Positions 3,231 to 64,000 of a DNA stretch of 64,000 bases are shown piece after piece. The first letter of the stretch is position 1, and every line of letters starts with the position of its first letter. The position numbers were made by a program, and so were the translations under genes. Under the pieces are notes generated by a model. That model searched no databases and was not told the DNA's origin. It saw only the letters and a list, made by a program, of their open reading frames with translations. Source of the DNA: Sphingomonas sp. Leaf357 (GTDB taxonomy: Bacteria; Pseudomonadota; Alphaproteobacteria; Sphingomonadales; Sphingomonadaceae); assembly GCF_001423845.1 (NCBI RefSeq), contig NZ_LMPM01000003.1, positions 1 to 64,000 on the forward strand. The letters are read 5' to 3'.

Positions 3231-3252
3231 TCTGACACTGCACTGCCCCCCA

Positions 3253-3319
3253 CCGTTCGTGCCGAGCCTGTCGAAGCACATGCCCCGAACACGCCCTTCG
3301 ACAGGCTCAGGGCGAACGG
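3253..3319. repeat. Palindromic repeat family E, copy 1
   Basis: Two 24 bp arms in inverted orientation (CCGTTCG...GAGCCTGTCGAAG and its complement) match at about 21 of 24 positions around a ~19 bp spacer. The same arms occur at 8636-8702 and 57461-57534. This copy lies between the convergent hpnN and mlaA stops, where the hairpin could help terminate both transcripts. Confidence 0.85.
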
Positions 3320-8616: not shown

Positions 8617-8635
8617 TTCCTCGCCATTCCAACAT

Positions 8636-8702
8636 CCGTTCGACATGCGCCCGTCGAAGGGCACGCGCCGCACTTGGGCTTCGACGAGCTCAGCCCGAAC
8701 GG
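8636..8702. repeat. Palindromic repeat family E, copy 2 (degenerate)
   Basis: The left arm begins CCGTTCGACATGCGCCCG and the right arm is CTTCGACGAGCTCAGCCCG followed by AACGG. Both match the family E arms with several changes. The repeat occupies most of the shc-hpnG gap and touches the 5' end of hpnG. Confidence 0.7.
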
Positions 8703-21624: not shown

Positions 21625-21644
21625 ATAGATCGACTTAAATATCA

Positions 21645-21748
21645 TCACCCCGGACTTGTTCCGGGGTCCACTGTGCCGCGAACCCAGCGCAAAAATCATC
21701 TAACTTGAACCAAGTCGCTTGGTGGACCCCGGAACAAGTCCGGGGTGA
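21645..21748. repeat. Palindromic repeat family A, copy 1
   Basis: Perfect 27 bp inverted arms (starting TCACCCCGGACTTGTTCCGG) flank a 50 bp spacer. The element sits between hpnL and the ABC-F gene, which converge. Other copies are at 24374, 39098 (with a gene inside), 46987 and 53252. Confidence 0.92.
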
Positions 21749-21759
21749 CGAAGGCTAGA

Positions 21760-24373: not shown

Positions 24374-24469
24374 CGTCACCCCGGACTTGTTCCGGGGTCC
24401 ACCGTGCCGCAAACGCAATGCCTGATGTCCTTTTGGCACAGTGGACCCCGAACCAAGTCCGGGGTGACG
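24374..24469. repeat. Palindromic repeat family A, copy 2
   Basis: Arms of 29 bp (CGTCACCCCGGACTTG... and ...CAAGTCCGGGGTGACG) with two differences between them flank a 38 bp spacer. It lies between the 59 aa gene and the BaiN-like gene. Confidence 0.9.
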
Positions 24470-39097: not shown

Positions 39098-39501
39098 CGT
39101 CACCCCGGACGTGTTCCGGGGTCCGCCGTGCGATCGAGCGCTACGGGCAGCGACGGCAGACCGAACCCCACCGCAAGATCGTTCCACATCGGGTTGTGCG
39201 CTTCGATCAAGTTGCGCTTCCATTCGCGTCGCCAGCGCTTCAGCTGTTTCTCACGCGTGATCGCAGCATCCATCGTGTCGGCGATCTCGAAATGCACCAG
39301 CCGCAAAATGCCGTACTTTTTCGTATGACCATCAAATCGCCCTTCCCGATGTTGAAGCACGCGACCAATCAGATTTGAGGTGACGCCGACATACATCGCG
39401 CCGTTGTAGCGATTGGCCAGGATGTAAACGCACGGTGTCCGCTCGATCATCGCCTTCAGTATCTGGAGCCTGGCAGACCCCGGAACAAGTCCGGGGTGAC
39501 G
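39098..39501 (-). mobile_element. Palindrome-framed GIY-YIG element 1 (family A arms)
   Basis: A 404 bp unit. The left arm (39098-39127) and right arm (39472-39501) are 30 bp inverted repeats with 28 matches. They are the same arms as the ~100 bp family A repeats elsewhere in the window, but here they enclose a GIY-YIG gene reading from the right arm to the left arm. The unit is almost the same size and layout as element 2 at 61063-61464. I see no target duplication flanking it. Confidence 0.65.
39100..39450 (-). CDS. GIY-YIG nuclease family protein (element 1)
   Basis: 116 residues with an AAGG ribosome site. The GIY-YIG domain fills the protein: CVYILAN and MYVGVTSNLIGRVLQHREG give the YVY..YVG core with the conserved Arg. 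ITREKQLKRWRREWK carries the catalytic Glu region, and NPMWNDLAVGFGLP is the family tail. It belongs to the small YhbQ/UPF0213-like group, whose natural substrate is unclear. The last eight codons (ADPGTRPG) and the TGA stop lie inside the family A repeat arm. It is about 60% similar by eye to the protein at 61105-61413. Confidence 0.88.
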   Translation of the reverse strand: MIERTPCVYILANRYNGAMYVGVTSNLIGRVLQHREGRFDGHTKKYGILRLVHFEIADTMDAAITREKQLKRWRREWKRNLIEAHNPMWNDLAVGFGLPSLPVALDRTADPGTRPG

Positions 39502-46986: not shown

Positions 46987-47093
46987 CGTCACCCCGGACT
47001 TGTTTTCGGGGTCCACGGTGCCGCAGGCTGGGCCGTTACCATTGTTCGTATCGAAAGCCGGTTGGTGGACCCCGGAGCAAGTCCGGGGTGACG
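46987..47093. repeat. Palindromic repeat family A, copy 4
   Basis: Arms of about 29 bp (CGTCACCCCGGACTTG... and ...CAAGTCCGGGGTGACG), with an extra T in the left arm, flank a 48 bp spacer. It lies between the membrane-protein start and the lpdA stop. Confidence 0.9.
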
Positions 47094-53197: not shown

Positions 53198-53348
53198 TAG
53201 GTTGTTGCGAGGGCCTATCTACGAGCAGCAGGTCTAACCCGATTTCTTCCCCGTCACCCCGGACGTGTTCCGGGGTCCACCGTGCCGCCAACGCCACGAT
53301 CTCCAATAGTCTGCAGAGAAAGCCGCTTGGCGGACCCCGGAACAAGTC

Positions 53349-53501
53349 GGTGCTTATACCTTTCGAACACGTATTCGTCATTCCCGCGCAGGCGAGAATC
53401 CATACTGGCTTACCTTTCGCTTCGTGAACGGCGTCAGAGCTTATGGATCCCCGCCTTCGCGGGGATGACGGCTTCATACTTGCTCGAGAGGTATAAGCGC
53501 C
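53349..53501. mobile_element. 153 bp inverted-repeat element with 9 bp target duplication
   Basis: The ends are GGTGCTTATACCTTTCGA and, inverted, GGCGCTTATACCTCTCGA, matching at 16 of 18 positions. The flanks are GAACAAGTC on both sides (53340-53348 and 53502-53510), a 9 bp target duplication. The inside is a family B palindromic repeat (53376-53470). No reading frame for a transposase is present, so it is non-autonomous (MITE-like). Confidence 0.8.
53376..53470. repeat. Palindromic repeat family B, copy 2 (inside the 153 bp element)
   Basis: Arms CGTCATTCCCGCGCAGGCGA... and GGATCCCCGCCTTCGCGGGG... match family B at 7823-7916. It forms the core of the nested element. Confidence 0.8.
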
Positions 53502-57460: not shown

Positions 57461-57534
57461 CCTCCGTTCGCCCTGAGCCTGTCGAAGGGCATGGCCCGGC
57501 GCTTGGGCTTCGACAGGCTCAGCCCGAACGGAGG
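57461..57534. repeat. Palindromic repeat family E, copy 3
   Basis: 27 bp arms (CCTCCGTTCGCCCTGAGCCT...) match at 25 of 27 positions around a ~20 bp spacer. It lies between the convergent peptidase and wrbA stops. Confidence 0.9.
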
Positions 57535-61062: not shown

Positions 61063-61464
61063 CGTCATCCCGGACTTGATCCGGGATCCAACGCGCCGAA
61101 AACGCTATGGCAGCGGGTTCAGTCCCAATCCCACCGCAAGGTCGTTCCAGGCGGGATTGTCCTGCTCGATCAGCTCGATCTTCCAATCCCTCAGCCAGTT
61201 CTTCATCGCCCTCTCACGCGCAATGACGGCGTCCATCGTCTCGCCGGCCTCGTACCAAGCGAGCCGTTTGATCCCATGCCGCTTGGTGAAGCCGTCAAAC
61301 GTGCCCTCACGATGCTGGATCACCCGCCCGATCAGGTTCGAGGTAGCACCGACATAGATCGCGCCCAGGCGGCGGTTGACCATCAGATAGACGCAAGGTT
61401 CGCGTTCCCGCACTTGCCACCTCTTCAGCCGCACGTTGGATGCCGGATCGAGTCCGGCATGACG
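61063..61464 (-). mobile_element. Palindrome-framed GIY-YIG element 2 (family D arms)
   Basis: A 402 bp unit. The left arm (61063-61093) and right arm (61434-61464) are 31 bp inverted repeats with 28 matches. A short element with the same arm type and no gene is at 63117-63212. The GIY-YIG gene reads from the right to the left arm, as in element 1. Size, layout and subterminal sequence (CGCGCCGAAAACGCTATGG near the left arm) resemble the gene-less repeats. Confidence 0.65.
61105..61413 (-). CDS. GIY-YIG nuclease family protein (element 2)
   Basis: 102 residues from GTG 61413, with GAGG 6 bases upstream. A longer GTG at 61434 would start in the repeat arm. The GIY-YIG core is CVYLMVN with IYVGATSNLIGRVIQHREG. 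The catalytic region is IARERAMKNWLRDWK, and the tail is NPAWNDLAVGLGL. It is about 60% similar by eye to the element 1 protein, and here the stop lies just outside the left arm. The protein is small and has no other domain. A role in moving or processing the flanking palindromes is inference. Confidence 0.86.
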   Translation of the reverse strand: MREREPCVYLMVNRRLGAIYVGATSNLIGRVIQHREGTFDGFTKRHGIKRLAWYEAGETMDAVIARERAMKNWLRDWKIELIEQDNPAWNDLAVGLGLNPLP

Positions 61465-61484: not shown

Positions 61485-63122
61485 TCACTTCCGCTCCCAC
61501 ACCTTCTCGCCGCCGACCCAGGTCTCCAGCACCTTGGTGCCACGCAGTTCGGTCGGGGACGCCAGCAGCGGATCGCGGTCGACGATGATGAAGTCGGCCC
61601 GCTGCCCCGCCGCCAGACGCCCGAACTTGTCCTCCGCGAAGCCGGCATAAGCGCCGCCTTGCGTGAACGCCCACCACGCCTGTTCGCGCGTGATCGCCTC
61701 TTCCGGCCGCCAGCCGCCGAACGGTTGCCCGGCCGCGTCCATGCGCGTGAACGCCGCCGCCCAGCCGGCGAACGGATCGGGGCTTTCGACCGGATAGTCC
61801 GATCCGAACGCGAGGTGTGCGCCGTTCTTCAGCATCGAGTTCCACGCATAGGCCCCGGTCAGCCGCGCCGGCCCCAGCCGGGCTTCGGCCATGATGCGGT
61901 CGCTCGTCTGGTGGACCGGCTGCATCGAGGCGATGATGCCGTTCTTGCCGAAGCGCGGCAGGTCGACGGGATCGACGATCTGCGCATGTTCGATCCGCCA
62001 GCGCCTGTCGCCTTTATAGGTATCGACCATCGCGTCGATCGCATCGAGCACCTGGGCATTGGCCTTGTCGCCGATCGCATGCACCGCGACCTGGAAACCC
62101 TCGAGCGAAGCTCGGCTCATCAGGTTGCGGATCACGTCCTCGGCCATGAAGCCGAGGCCGCTCTGTCTCGGTGCGTCGCTATACGGCGCCTTCAGCCACG
62201 CGCCGCGCGATCCGAGCGCGCCATCGGCGTACAGCTTCACGCCGCCGAGGCGCAGCTTGTCGCCATACAGCCACGGCGTCGGCCCGCGCCCGGCGATCTG
62301 CACCGCCGTATCCACGCCGCTGGCATAGCTCATCACCCGCACGCGCATCGCGCCGAGATCGCCCATCCGGCGATAGGCGAGCCAATCGTCCAGGCTCGTC
62401 CCCATGTCCGCCGTCGCGGTGATGCCGAAGCCGAGCAGGATGCTCTGCGCCTTCAGGAACGCGGCGTTGCGATCGCTCGGCAGTGGTTGCGGCAGGGCCT
62501 TTTCGATCAGGGTCTGCGCCGCATCCACGAACACACCGTTCGGCAGCAGCCCGGTCTTCTCGATCCGCCCGCCCGGAGGCGACACGCTCTTGGCCGAAAT
62601 GCCGGCCGCCTTCATCGCGGCGGCATTGGCCCAACCGGCATGTCCGTCGACCCGGCTCAGCCAGATCGACCGATCCCCCGCCACGCCTTCGAGATCGGCG
62701 GCGGTGGGAAAGCGGCCGAGACCCCAGATTTCCTGGTTCCACCCGCCGCCCAGGATCCAGCGGCGATCGGGATTGGCGGCAGCGTACGCGGCGATCTTCG
62801 CCTTGGCCTCGTCCAGCGTCTTGGTGTCCGACAGATCGAGCGCCAGCGCGCGGAAGCCGAGTTCCATGACATGGCCGTGCGCATCGACGAAGCCGGGCAG
62901 CAGCACCTTGCCCTTCATGTCGGCGCGCCAATCGAGCTTGTCCGGGCGCTTGTCGCCGCGCTGGAGCAGCTTCGTCACCTTGCCGCCCGGCGTCATCAGC
63001 AGCCCGGTGAACTGGATCGGCTTGCCGTCCTTGTCGAGCGTGATGCCGGCGACGTTGTCGACCAACGCGTCGGCGAGGACGGGGGATGGCATGAGGGCGA
63101 GGCCCAACCCCAATGCCGTCAT
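61485..63122 (-). CDS. YtcJ-type amidohydrolase (amidohydrolase 3 family), exported
   Basis: 545 residues from ATG 63122. The start is inside the family D repeat, yet gives a proper signal peptide (MTALGLGLALMPSPVLADA); a shorter start at 63089 loses it. Metal and substrate motifs: LPGFVDAHGHVMELG, LSRVDGHAGWAN, IHAIGDKANAQ-type VAVHAIGDKANAQ, RIEHAQIVDP and LAFGSDYPVESPDPFAGWAAA. Members deacylate or hydrolyse varied cyclic amides. It is in the same direction as the dehydrogenase upstream. Confidence 0.9.
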   Translation of the reverse strand: MTALGLGLALMPSPVLADALVDNVAGITLDKDGKPIQFTGLLMTPGGKVTKLLQRGDKRPDKLDWRADMKGKVLLPGFVDAHGHVMELGFRALALDLSDTKTLDEAKAKIAAYAAANPDRRWILGGGWNQEIWGLGRFPTAADLEGVAGDRSIWLSRVDGHAGWANAAAMKAAGISAKSVSPPGGRIEKTGLLPNGVFVDAAQTLIEKALPQPLPSDRNAAFLKAQSILLGFGITATADMGTSLDDWLAYRRMGDLGAMRVRVMSYASGVDTAVQIAGRGPTPWLYGDKLRLGGVKLYADGALGSRGAWLKAPYSDAPRQSGLGFMAEDVIRNLMSRASLEGFQVAVHAIGDKANAQVLDAIDAMVDTYKGDRRWRIEHAQIVDPVDLPRFGKNGIIASMQPVHQTSDRIMAEARLGPARLTGAYAWNSMLKNGAHLAFGSDYPVESPDPFAGWAAAFTRMDAAGQPFGGWRPEEAITREQAWWAFTQGGAYAGFAEDKFGRLAAGQRADFIIVDRDPLLASPTELRGTKVLETWVGGEKVWERK

Positions 63123-63212
63123 CCCGGACTTGATCCGGGATCCAACGGCCCGCAAAAGCAACGGCCGATCGGTGCGCGGCACGTTGGATCCCGGAACAGG
63201 TCCGGGATGACG
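63117..63212. repeat. Palindromic repeat family D, gene-less copy
   Basis: 31 bp arms (CGTCATCCCGGACTTGATCC... and its inverted partner) flank a ~34 bp spacer. It covers the gap between the dehydrogenase stop and the amidohydrolase, and provides that gene's ATG. Confidence 0.9.
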
Positions 63213-63226
63213 GGGTGTAAGGAAAC

Positions 63227-64000
63227 TCACTTCGCCAATCTCCTCACCAGCGCGCTGGTATCCTGCCGTGCGCCGCCCATCTTCTGCACTTCGGCGTAGA
63301 ACTGATCGACCAACGCCGCGACCGGCAGCACCGCGCCGTTCGTCTTCGCCTCGTCCAGCGCGAGGCCCAGATCCTTGCGCATCCAATCCACCGCGAAGCC
63401 GAAATCGAAGCGGTCCTGCCCCATCGATTCCCAGCGATTGACCATCTGCCAGCTTTGCGCCGCGCCGCCGGAGATCGCCTCGAACACCTTGGCCAGATCG
63501 AGTTCGCTCGCCTGCGCGAACCTCAATGCCTCGCTCAGGCCCTGCAACACCCCGGCGATGGCGATCTGGTTGACCATCTTGGTCGTCTGCCCCGCGCCCG
63601 CCGCGCCGACATGCACGATCCGCGCGGCATAGGCGGACATGATCGGCTCGGCCAATGCCATCGCTTCCGGCGTGCCGCCGCACATGATCGAGAGCTTGCC
63701 GTTCTCCGCCCCGGCCTGCCCGCCCGAGACCGGCGCGTCGACCGGCAGCGCGCGCGCCTCGGCCAGCCGCCGTGCGATTCCCGCCGAGACGGTGGTGTGA
63801 TCGATGAACACCGCATCCTCGCGCATCGCCGCGAACGCGCCGTCCGGGCCGAGCGTCACCGCATCCAGATCGTCGTCGTTGCCGACGCAGGTGATCACCG
63901 CATCCTTGTCCCGCGCCGCCTCGGCCGGCGTATCGGCGACCTTCAGCCCGGTCGCCTCCGCCTTGGCGCGCGTGCGATTGTAGACCGTGACGTCGTGTCC
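63227..64000 (-). CDS. 3-hydroxyisobutyrate dehydrogenase-like protein (5' end missing)
   Basis: The open frame runs off the window end; 257 C-terminal residues are present, of ~290 expected. The NAD-binding start GxGxMG lies outside, but VYNRTRAKAE and ITCVGNDDDL remain. The substrate motif DAPVSGGQAGAENGKLSIMCGG and the catalytic Lys in GAGQTTKMVNQI are clear. It reduces or oxidises a beta-hydroxyacid such as 3-hydroxyisobutyrate or tartronate semialdehyde; which one is not shown. Confidence 0.9.
   Translation of the reverse strand, partial: GHDVTVYNRTRAKAEATGLKVADTPAEAARDKDAVITCVGNDDDLDAVTLGPDGAFAAMREDAVFIDHTTVSAGIARRLAEARALPVDAPVSGGQAGAENGKLSIMCGGTPEAMALAEPIMSAYAARIVHVGAAGAGQTTKMVNQIAIAGVLQGLSEALRFAQASELDLAKVFEAISGGAAQSWQMVNRWESMGQDRFDFGFAVDWMRKDLGLALDEAKTNGAVLPVAALVDQFYAEVQKMGGARQDTSALVRRLAK

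Follow-up and report, generated by a model that had tools for sequence, protein, structure and literature searches.

A gene for a small GIY-YIG nuclease lies between two inverted hairpin repeats (REPs) at positions 61063-61464 of the window, by which we mean the whole 64-kb stretch of DNA analyzed. The unit starts with CGTC at 61063, ends with GACG at 61464 and is 402 bp long, exactly where the original prediction had placed a GIY-YIG element, and its ORF matches the Pfam GIY-YIG family (E=3e-11). An alternative internal GTG start would give a protein of 102 aa. A second unit (element 1) and gene-less repeat dimers are found elsewhere in the window. The features, with the evidence used for each, are as follows.

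61063-61464, minus strand: whole unit, REP - GIY-YIG gene - REP (sequence, ORF, Pfam, flank score)
61063-61090, plus strand: left REP, with CGTC tag, 8-bp stem, CTTGA loop and CCA tail (fold)
61105-61434, minus strand: GIY-YIG nuclease ORF, 109 aa from GTG (ORF list, Pfam)
61437-61464, minus strand: right REP, inverted, with CGTC tag, 8-bp stem, CTCGA loop and CCA tail (fold)
39098-39501, minus strand: element 1, REP - GIY-YIG gene (39100-39450) - REP, 404 bp (sequence, ORF, genome search)
63117-63212, no strand assigned: gene-less REP dimer of the window-element subtype, 96 bp (sequence comparison, fold)
21643-21750, no strand assigned: gene-less REP dimer of the element 1 subtype (sequence comparison)
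24374-24469, no strand assigned: gene-less REP dimer of the element 1 subtype (sequence comparison)
46987-47093, no strand assigned: gene-less REP dimer of the element 1 subtype (sequence comparison)
53252-53358, no strand assigned: gene-less REP dimer of the element 1 subtype, right end decayed (sequence comparison)

The ORF of element 1 (39100-39450, minus strand) encodes 116 aa and matches GIY-YIG in the genome search (C3:39211-39432). As predicted, the two units resemble each other in length (402 versus 404 bp), layout and gene orientation, both genes being on the minus strand. They had also been assigned to different arm families; the arms do differ, but those of family D, found in the window element, and those of element 1 turned out to be subtypes of one CGTC REP type. 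Stem pair 3 of the window element is C-G in the left arm and G-C in the right arm, so that pairing is preserved. The gene-less family D copy expected at 63117 was found as the 96-bp dimer listed above, which has subterminal sequence in common with the window element (43 of 50 nt identical on the left, 31 of 39 on the right). The GATGACG end of this dimer could provide the ATG of an amidohydrolase-like ORF (61485-63683, minus strand), whose start codon may thus be repeat-derived; its product (MTALGLGLALMPSPVLA...) is signal-peptide-like.

CGTC REPs are described as having a CGTC tag, a stem of 8-9 bp, a loop of 4-5 bases and a CCA tail, and as occurring mainly as head-to-head dimers and mainly in alphaproteobacteria (PMC3733652). 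The window arms and the dimers show the same tag, stem, loop and tail, and the dimer arrangement also agrees. By contrast, a nuclease gene lies between the repeats here, whereas the defining paper (Di Nocera, De Gregorio, Rocco 2013; PMC3733652) describes CGTC REPs as apparently having neither a dedicated transposase nor a tie to transposase genes. GIY is not mentioned in the main text of that paper, nor in that of RepRanger (PMC12306157). Titles and abstract openings in the literature gave no link between GIY-YIG proteins and REP or CGTC repeats; such a link may partly be contained in the work on Ssn nucleases considered below.

Two whole ORFs bracket the window element, which does not lie inside an intron, an intein or a conserved gene, whereas the gene of a GIY-YIG homing endonuclease would be located in one of these. 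The nearest solved structures by sequence are PDB 1zg2 (E 2e-7) and 1ywl (E 8e-4), both of small GIY-YIG proteins of the UPF0213/YhbQ type, yet these are distant. NCBIfam gave no match for one GIY-YIG protein. A reading as a phage or defense gene was discarded, as three of the proteins had no PHROGs or PADLOC match.

Repeats and GIY-YIG genes in the genome, the genus and beyond

The 12-mer core GTCAYCCCGGAC is present in 176 copies in the source genome versus 0 for the reversed control; 84 copies are forward and 92 reverse, and many of those listed form close plus/minus pairs. This genome has eight non-UvrC GIY-YIG genes; the inverted repeats around seven of them score at least 43, the eighth (L002) scores 35, and UvrC scores 20. 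Residues Y16, Y27, R37 and E74 are invariant in six of the GIY-YIG proteins, and we take them to fit the catalytic residues of the GIY-YIG active site. At L005 (G000:C1:1550674-1550895), whose arms are of the element 1 subtype, the GIY-YIG gene has an in-frame TGA.

We analyzed 41 genomes of the genus, comprising the source genome (G000) and 40 drawn out of a larger group, and called arms at a flanking inverted-repeat score of at least 36. Among the matches listed, 85 of 111 small GIY-YIG loci reached this score and 26 did not. None of 296 control windows, which were not restricted to intergenic gaps, reached 36, the top control being 35. Elsewhere, 56 of 78 named loci scored at least 36 versus 1 of 240 controls; these loci were the best 80 of 582 and not a random draw, with two of the 80 left out for a short flank. 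The best 80 of 582 represent alpha-, beta-, gamma- and deltaproteobacteria and a few other taxa, and by eye CGTC-type hairpins are present at most of them and absent at a few. Chance flanking was rejected on these controls (0/296 and 1/240, not confined to intergenic gaps), and they bear out the earlier judgment that chance insertion of a gene into a repeat is unlikely. Arms from different loci paired with each other at the threshold of 36 in 48 of 400 cases, because arm families are common to several loci.

Seven of 118 loci were set apart as UvrC-size (open frames of at least 600 aa), six of them taken as UvrC and the seventh being L137. Only L137 has flanking repeats, and its flanking sequence is similar to that around a small GIY-YIG locus.

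A gonococcal homologue with 44% identity (tblastn) is flanked by the same kind of repeats, and at the Azospirillum locus the unit lies between sufB and sufC with a full dimer on either side. We also inspected the flanks of eight plasmid loci, hand-picked among 32 records. Clear CGTC pairs were present at four (Neisseria, Novosphingobium, Azospirillum and Sphingobium), scores of 36-37 with other repeats were obtained at two (Planktothrix and Spirosoma), and no flanking repeat pair was detected at the Rhizobium and Photobacterium loci. On the Planktothrix agardhii plasmid p1 (L185), the GIY-YIG relative has an annotated MmeI-type enzyme gene on one side and the DISARM gene drmA on the other, and several TGTCATTCTGAG... 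repeats are found in its surroundings. On the Spirosoma oryzicola plasmid (L186), GTCATCCCGAGGAACGAGGGATCT-type repeats flank a distant GIY-YIG relative, which suggests that the same plan extends to Bacteroidota.

Arm hairpins and their match to the nuclease

Subfamily I proteins (xCVYILAxxxNGxxYIGVTSNL) accompany CGTC arms, and subfamily II proteins (FWTYILRCxDGSYYTGHTDNLERR) accompany CGTTCG...CTGAG arms. Among 236 subfamily I arms, 162 contain a hairpin bearing a CGTC-like tag (84 distinct), hairpins having been selected for at least 3/4 tag letters and at least 6/8 stem pairs. CGTC is present in 82 of the 84 distinct hairpins and CCA in 73. Six of the eight stem pairs vary yet are Watson-Crick in 81-84 of the 84, for each pair more often than in any of 1000 shuffles, in a set where selection for at least 6/8 pairs itself favors pairing; stem pairs 1 and 4 merely equal the maximum of their 1000 shuffles. 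The selection filter is not the source of the variety at pair 3 (43 C-G, 27 T-A, 12 G-C). Where both arms contain a hairpin (79 elements), left and right disagree at 54 pair positions, 37 of which are Watson-Crick in both arms. Paired but variable stems are what a single-stranded DNA or RNA hairpin target would predict, and a conserved tag and tail around a variable paired stem is what a nuclease reading both structure and sequence would select.

The original prediction suggested that arm and nuclease co-diverge; congruent protein and arm trees were to speak for it, and the lack of any arm-protein correlation, or arms persisting over long evolutionary times in species with no such protein, against it. 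Over 3242 pairs of loci from different genomes and with unlike flanks, the more similar two proteins were, the more similar were their arms (Spearman 0.37, versus 0.13 at most in 500 permutations). To allow for the many orthologous loci, each of 27 site groups was then represented by a single locus, giving a mean Mantel rho of 0.475 (range 0.29-0.59 over 40 draws), which at most 2 of 100 permutations reached in any draw. The nearest protein at another site has the same arm in 50% of cases, versus 17% for a random pair. On the protein tree, which has few columns and many open forks, the two arm superfamilies separate with a single change; within subfamily I there are 12 arm-family changes (shuffled mean 33, minimum 27), and within subfamily II also 12 (shuffled mean 15.1, minimum 11). 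These results indicate that the link between arm and nuclease is strong in subfamily I and weak in subfamily II. Congruence was thus observed across the site groups and between the superfamilies, and the proposed co-divergence holds for subfamily I but barely for subfamily II, within which the arm-protein correlation is weak.

As for arms without the protein, the CTGAACTTGTTTCAG core reaches at least 7 copies in all eight genomes with the cognate gene versus 6 of 33 without a listed one, so that this objection applies in part; the highest such count is 128 copies, in G016, where the cognate gene is absent among the matches listed. The median number of CCCCGGCGAAGGCCGGGG copies is 76 with the cognate gene versus 11 without it (p=0.0016; this and the other copy-number p-values are optimistic because the genomes are related), and several genomes without a listed cognate gene reach about 100. 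In G035, 137 copies of a repeat type other than the one counted in G016 are present, again with no cognate gene among the matches listed. The copy-number link was not significant for arm families 4/5, which include that of the window (p=0.07). No genome contains more than 8 dispersed matches of CTGGACTTGATCCAG, and G022 has 393 matches of one repeat core. Summed counts of three repeat cores rose with the small GIY-YIG genes listed per genome (rho 0.37, p=0.017), but their correlation with the number of arm-bearing ones was not significant (rho 0.26, p=0.10). The four genomes without a listed small gene, in which weak unlisted matches are possible, have repeat totals of 2, 1, 21 and 33. The exceptions would be explicable by repeats outliving their nuclease, or by another nuclease serving them.

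Several further observations concern the two subfamilies. In the window, inverted CGTTCG...CTGAG / TTCGACA...CGAACGG repeat pairs at 3250-3319, 8633-8702 and 57461-57531 are gene-less dimers of the repeat superfamily of subfamily II. Subfamily II GIY-YIG genes are found at L001, L041, L042, L044-L051, L053, L054 and L057, and often share one long open frame (~360-450 aa) with the downstream gene; the continuation in the L001 and L048 frames presumably resembles an RNA methyltransferase. At L082 and L094 the nuclease frame enters the right repeat, and the C-terminal peptide MDSRLRGND is a translated CGTC REP.

Stability, gain and loss of gene and repeats

Among the matches listed, 34 site groups account for the 111 small loci and 27 for the 85 armed loci, most genes being orthologous at shared sites; 18 of the 26 arm-less loci are at sites where another genome carries arms. 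An insertion sequence or MITE would be expected to leave near-identical gene-bearing copies in one genome, whereas none of 95 within-genome pairs of armed nucleases was a recent duplicate (score ratio of at least 0.8). In 157 orthologous pairs (at least 70% identity, dS 0.05-1.5), the median dN/dS was 0.17 and the maximum 0.40; the GIY-YIG genes are under purifying selection. A stable gene with dispersed repeats is the RAYT pattern. The original reading of a gene carried in an element was amended accordingly: the genes do not look like free jumpers and are mostly orthologous at shared sites.

Presence and absence of the unit differ between relatives. In G031 both neighbors of the window element adjoin each other and the element is missing. 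The gene next to the element is, we assume, CtrA-like, and this gene was listed for 39 other genomes, in none of which a listed GIY-YIG gene was seen beside it by eye. The window copy was therefore either gained in this lineage or lost elsewhere. In Azospirillum lipoferum the unit lies between sufB and sufC, and in each of the 11 further Azospirillum records listed with both flanks the match is confined to sequence outside the unit (three of the 11 were aligned). The unit is present in seven Sphingobium megaplasmid records, and three records without it were aligned. In two of these, TomTYG64 (L311) and TomTYG74 (L312), one palindrome is left that consists of the outer halves of both arms and looks like a solo-scar-like collapse between the arms; TomTYG72 has other sequence at the site.

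Gene-less dimers also come and go. At L270 (11355-11454), compared with L271, a repeat dimer is cleanly absent from G024 together with ~7-12 bp at either end, and kept in G034 and G018, which is best read as a deletion in G024 rather than an insertion in its relatives. One of three plasmids carries a subfamily II dimer that the other two lack. We detected no clean insertion junction in eight groups of 20-kb syntenic windows, a 200-kb pair (~37 kb aligned) and three 100-kb plasmid stretches, nor in the aligned records of the Azospirillum and Sphingobium presence/absence sites. At the few sites aligned, the flanks differ beyond the tags and no target-site duplication was seen. The strain comparison proposed with the original prediction thus yielded differences in presence and absence, but not a clean junction.

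A GIY-YIG nuclease as the probable counterpart of RAYT

In RAYT-REPIN systems, a stable nuclease gene is flanked by its own REP type, and REP dimers are dispersed in the genome. Here, too, the gene is flanked by its cognate REP, is stable and shows no in-genome spread. The RAYT enzyme is an HUH/Y1 transposase, whereas the enzyme here is a GIY-YIG protein by Pfam, in a genome where no match to a Y1 transposase was detected. Y1 transposases were likewise not found in 38 of the 41 genus genomes, and the same search was positive in 5 of 14 named control genomes. RAYTs belong to the Y1 family, and a RAYT as mobilizer in this genus is unsupported. We rate this as a REP system in which a GIY-YIG nuclease takes RAYT's place.

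Ssn proteins are reportedly site-specific single-stranded nucleases of the GIY-YIG superfamily (Nature Communications 2025). The Neisseria enzyme is said to cut single-stranded repeats and to affect natural transformation; the targets are reportedly repeats in hundreds of copies, and homologues are said to have sequences of their own. Ssn nucleases are the closest known enzymes, and like the system described here they combine a small GIY-YIG protein with conserved residues and many-copy repeats. Their reported role is in natural transformation; to our knowledge, Ssn has not been linked to REP dispersal or to arm-protein congruence.

Since enzyme and repeat types tend to change together in related bacteria, the missing partner that handles this common bacterial repeat family may well be the nuclease. 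It is probably a counterpart of RAYT-REPIN, namely a GIY-YIG nuclease that is matched to, and mobilizes, its own CGTC REP hairpin dimers. The small, mostly vertically inherited nuclease, whose gene sits between a pair of its own hairpin repeats, would bind and cut the hairpin on single strands and thereby drive dispersal. It would recognize the cognate hairpin by tag, stem, loop and CCA tail in single-stranded DNA and nick at or near the tag, a cutting step that we presume from the Neisseria Ssn work. The freed repeat dimer might then be re-used by replication or repair and so be copied or moved to new places; gene-less dimers would disperse while the nuclease gene itself would rarely move.

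The same features bear on other explanations. An Ssn-like guard that tunes uptake or recombination by cutting repeats on single-stranded DNA, whether incoming or displaced, would stay matched to the repeats as its target set while they spread by other means. What is said of cutting and transformation in Neisseria agrees with such a role, as do the gonococcal homologue (44% identity) between the same kind of repeats and the stability and purifying selection of the genes. On its own, however, a guard leaves unexplained both the position of the gene between repeats at most loci and the spread of the repeats where no Y1 transposase was found, and we regard it as rather unlikely. We give still less weight to a transposon in which REP-gene-REP jumps as a whole in the manner of an insertion sequence and gene-less dimers are internal deletions (MITEs). 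The subterminal sequence common to the gene-less copy and the element would fit this, and so would the absence of the unit at the same site in G031 and, compared with A. lipoferum, in every one of the 11 further Azospirillum records listed with both flanks; but most loci are orthologous, no recently duplicated armed gene pair was found within genomes (0 of 95), and no target-site duplication was seen in the few sites aligned.

Finally, GIY-YIG genes might be flanked by coincidence, as bystanders where REPs gather between genes. REPs are mostly intergenic (Di Nocera 2013, PMC3733652), and the dimer at 63117-63212 lies near the element with no linked nuclease gene. Coincidence is nevertheless highly improbable in view of the control windows (0/296 and 1/240, in windows not confined to intergenic gaps), of the UvrC-size frames, where one of seven has repeats and that one (L137) has flanks like those of a small GIY-YIG locus, and of the arm-protein congruence across sites.

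Beyond this genome, our reading of a nuclease that mobilizes its own repeats becomes more tentative. GIY-YIG nucleases might be dedicated mobilizers of CGTC REPs and of the sphingomonad CGTTCG...CTGAG-type repeats, so that REP-type parasites could have been founded without an HUH transposase. Just as tentatively, nuclease clades may keep their own hairpins and several systems may coexist in one genome, which here has eight genes.

CGTC REPs are widespread in alphaproteobacteria, and their mover was left open in the defining paper (PMC3733652). A co-diverging nuclease between the repeats makes the question of this mover directly testable, and a predicted target is offered for many proteins annotated merely as "GIY-YIG nuclease family protein". 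If the proposal is true, REP-type parasites would have arisen with an enzyme unrelated to HUH transposases.
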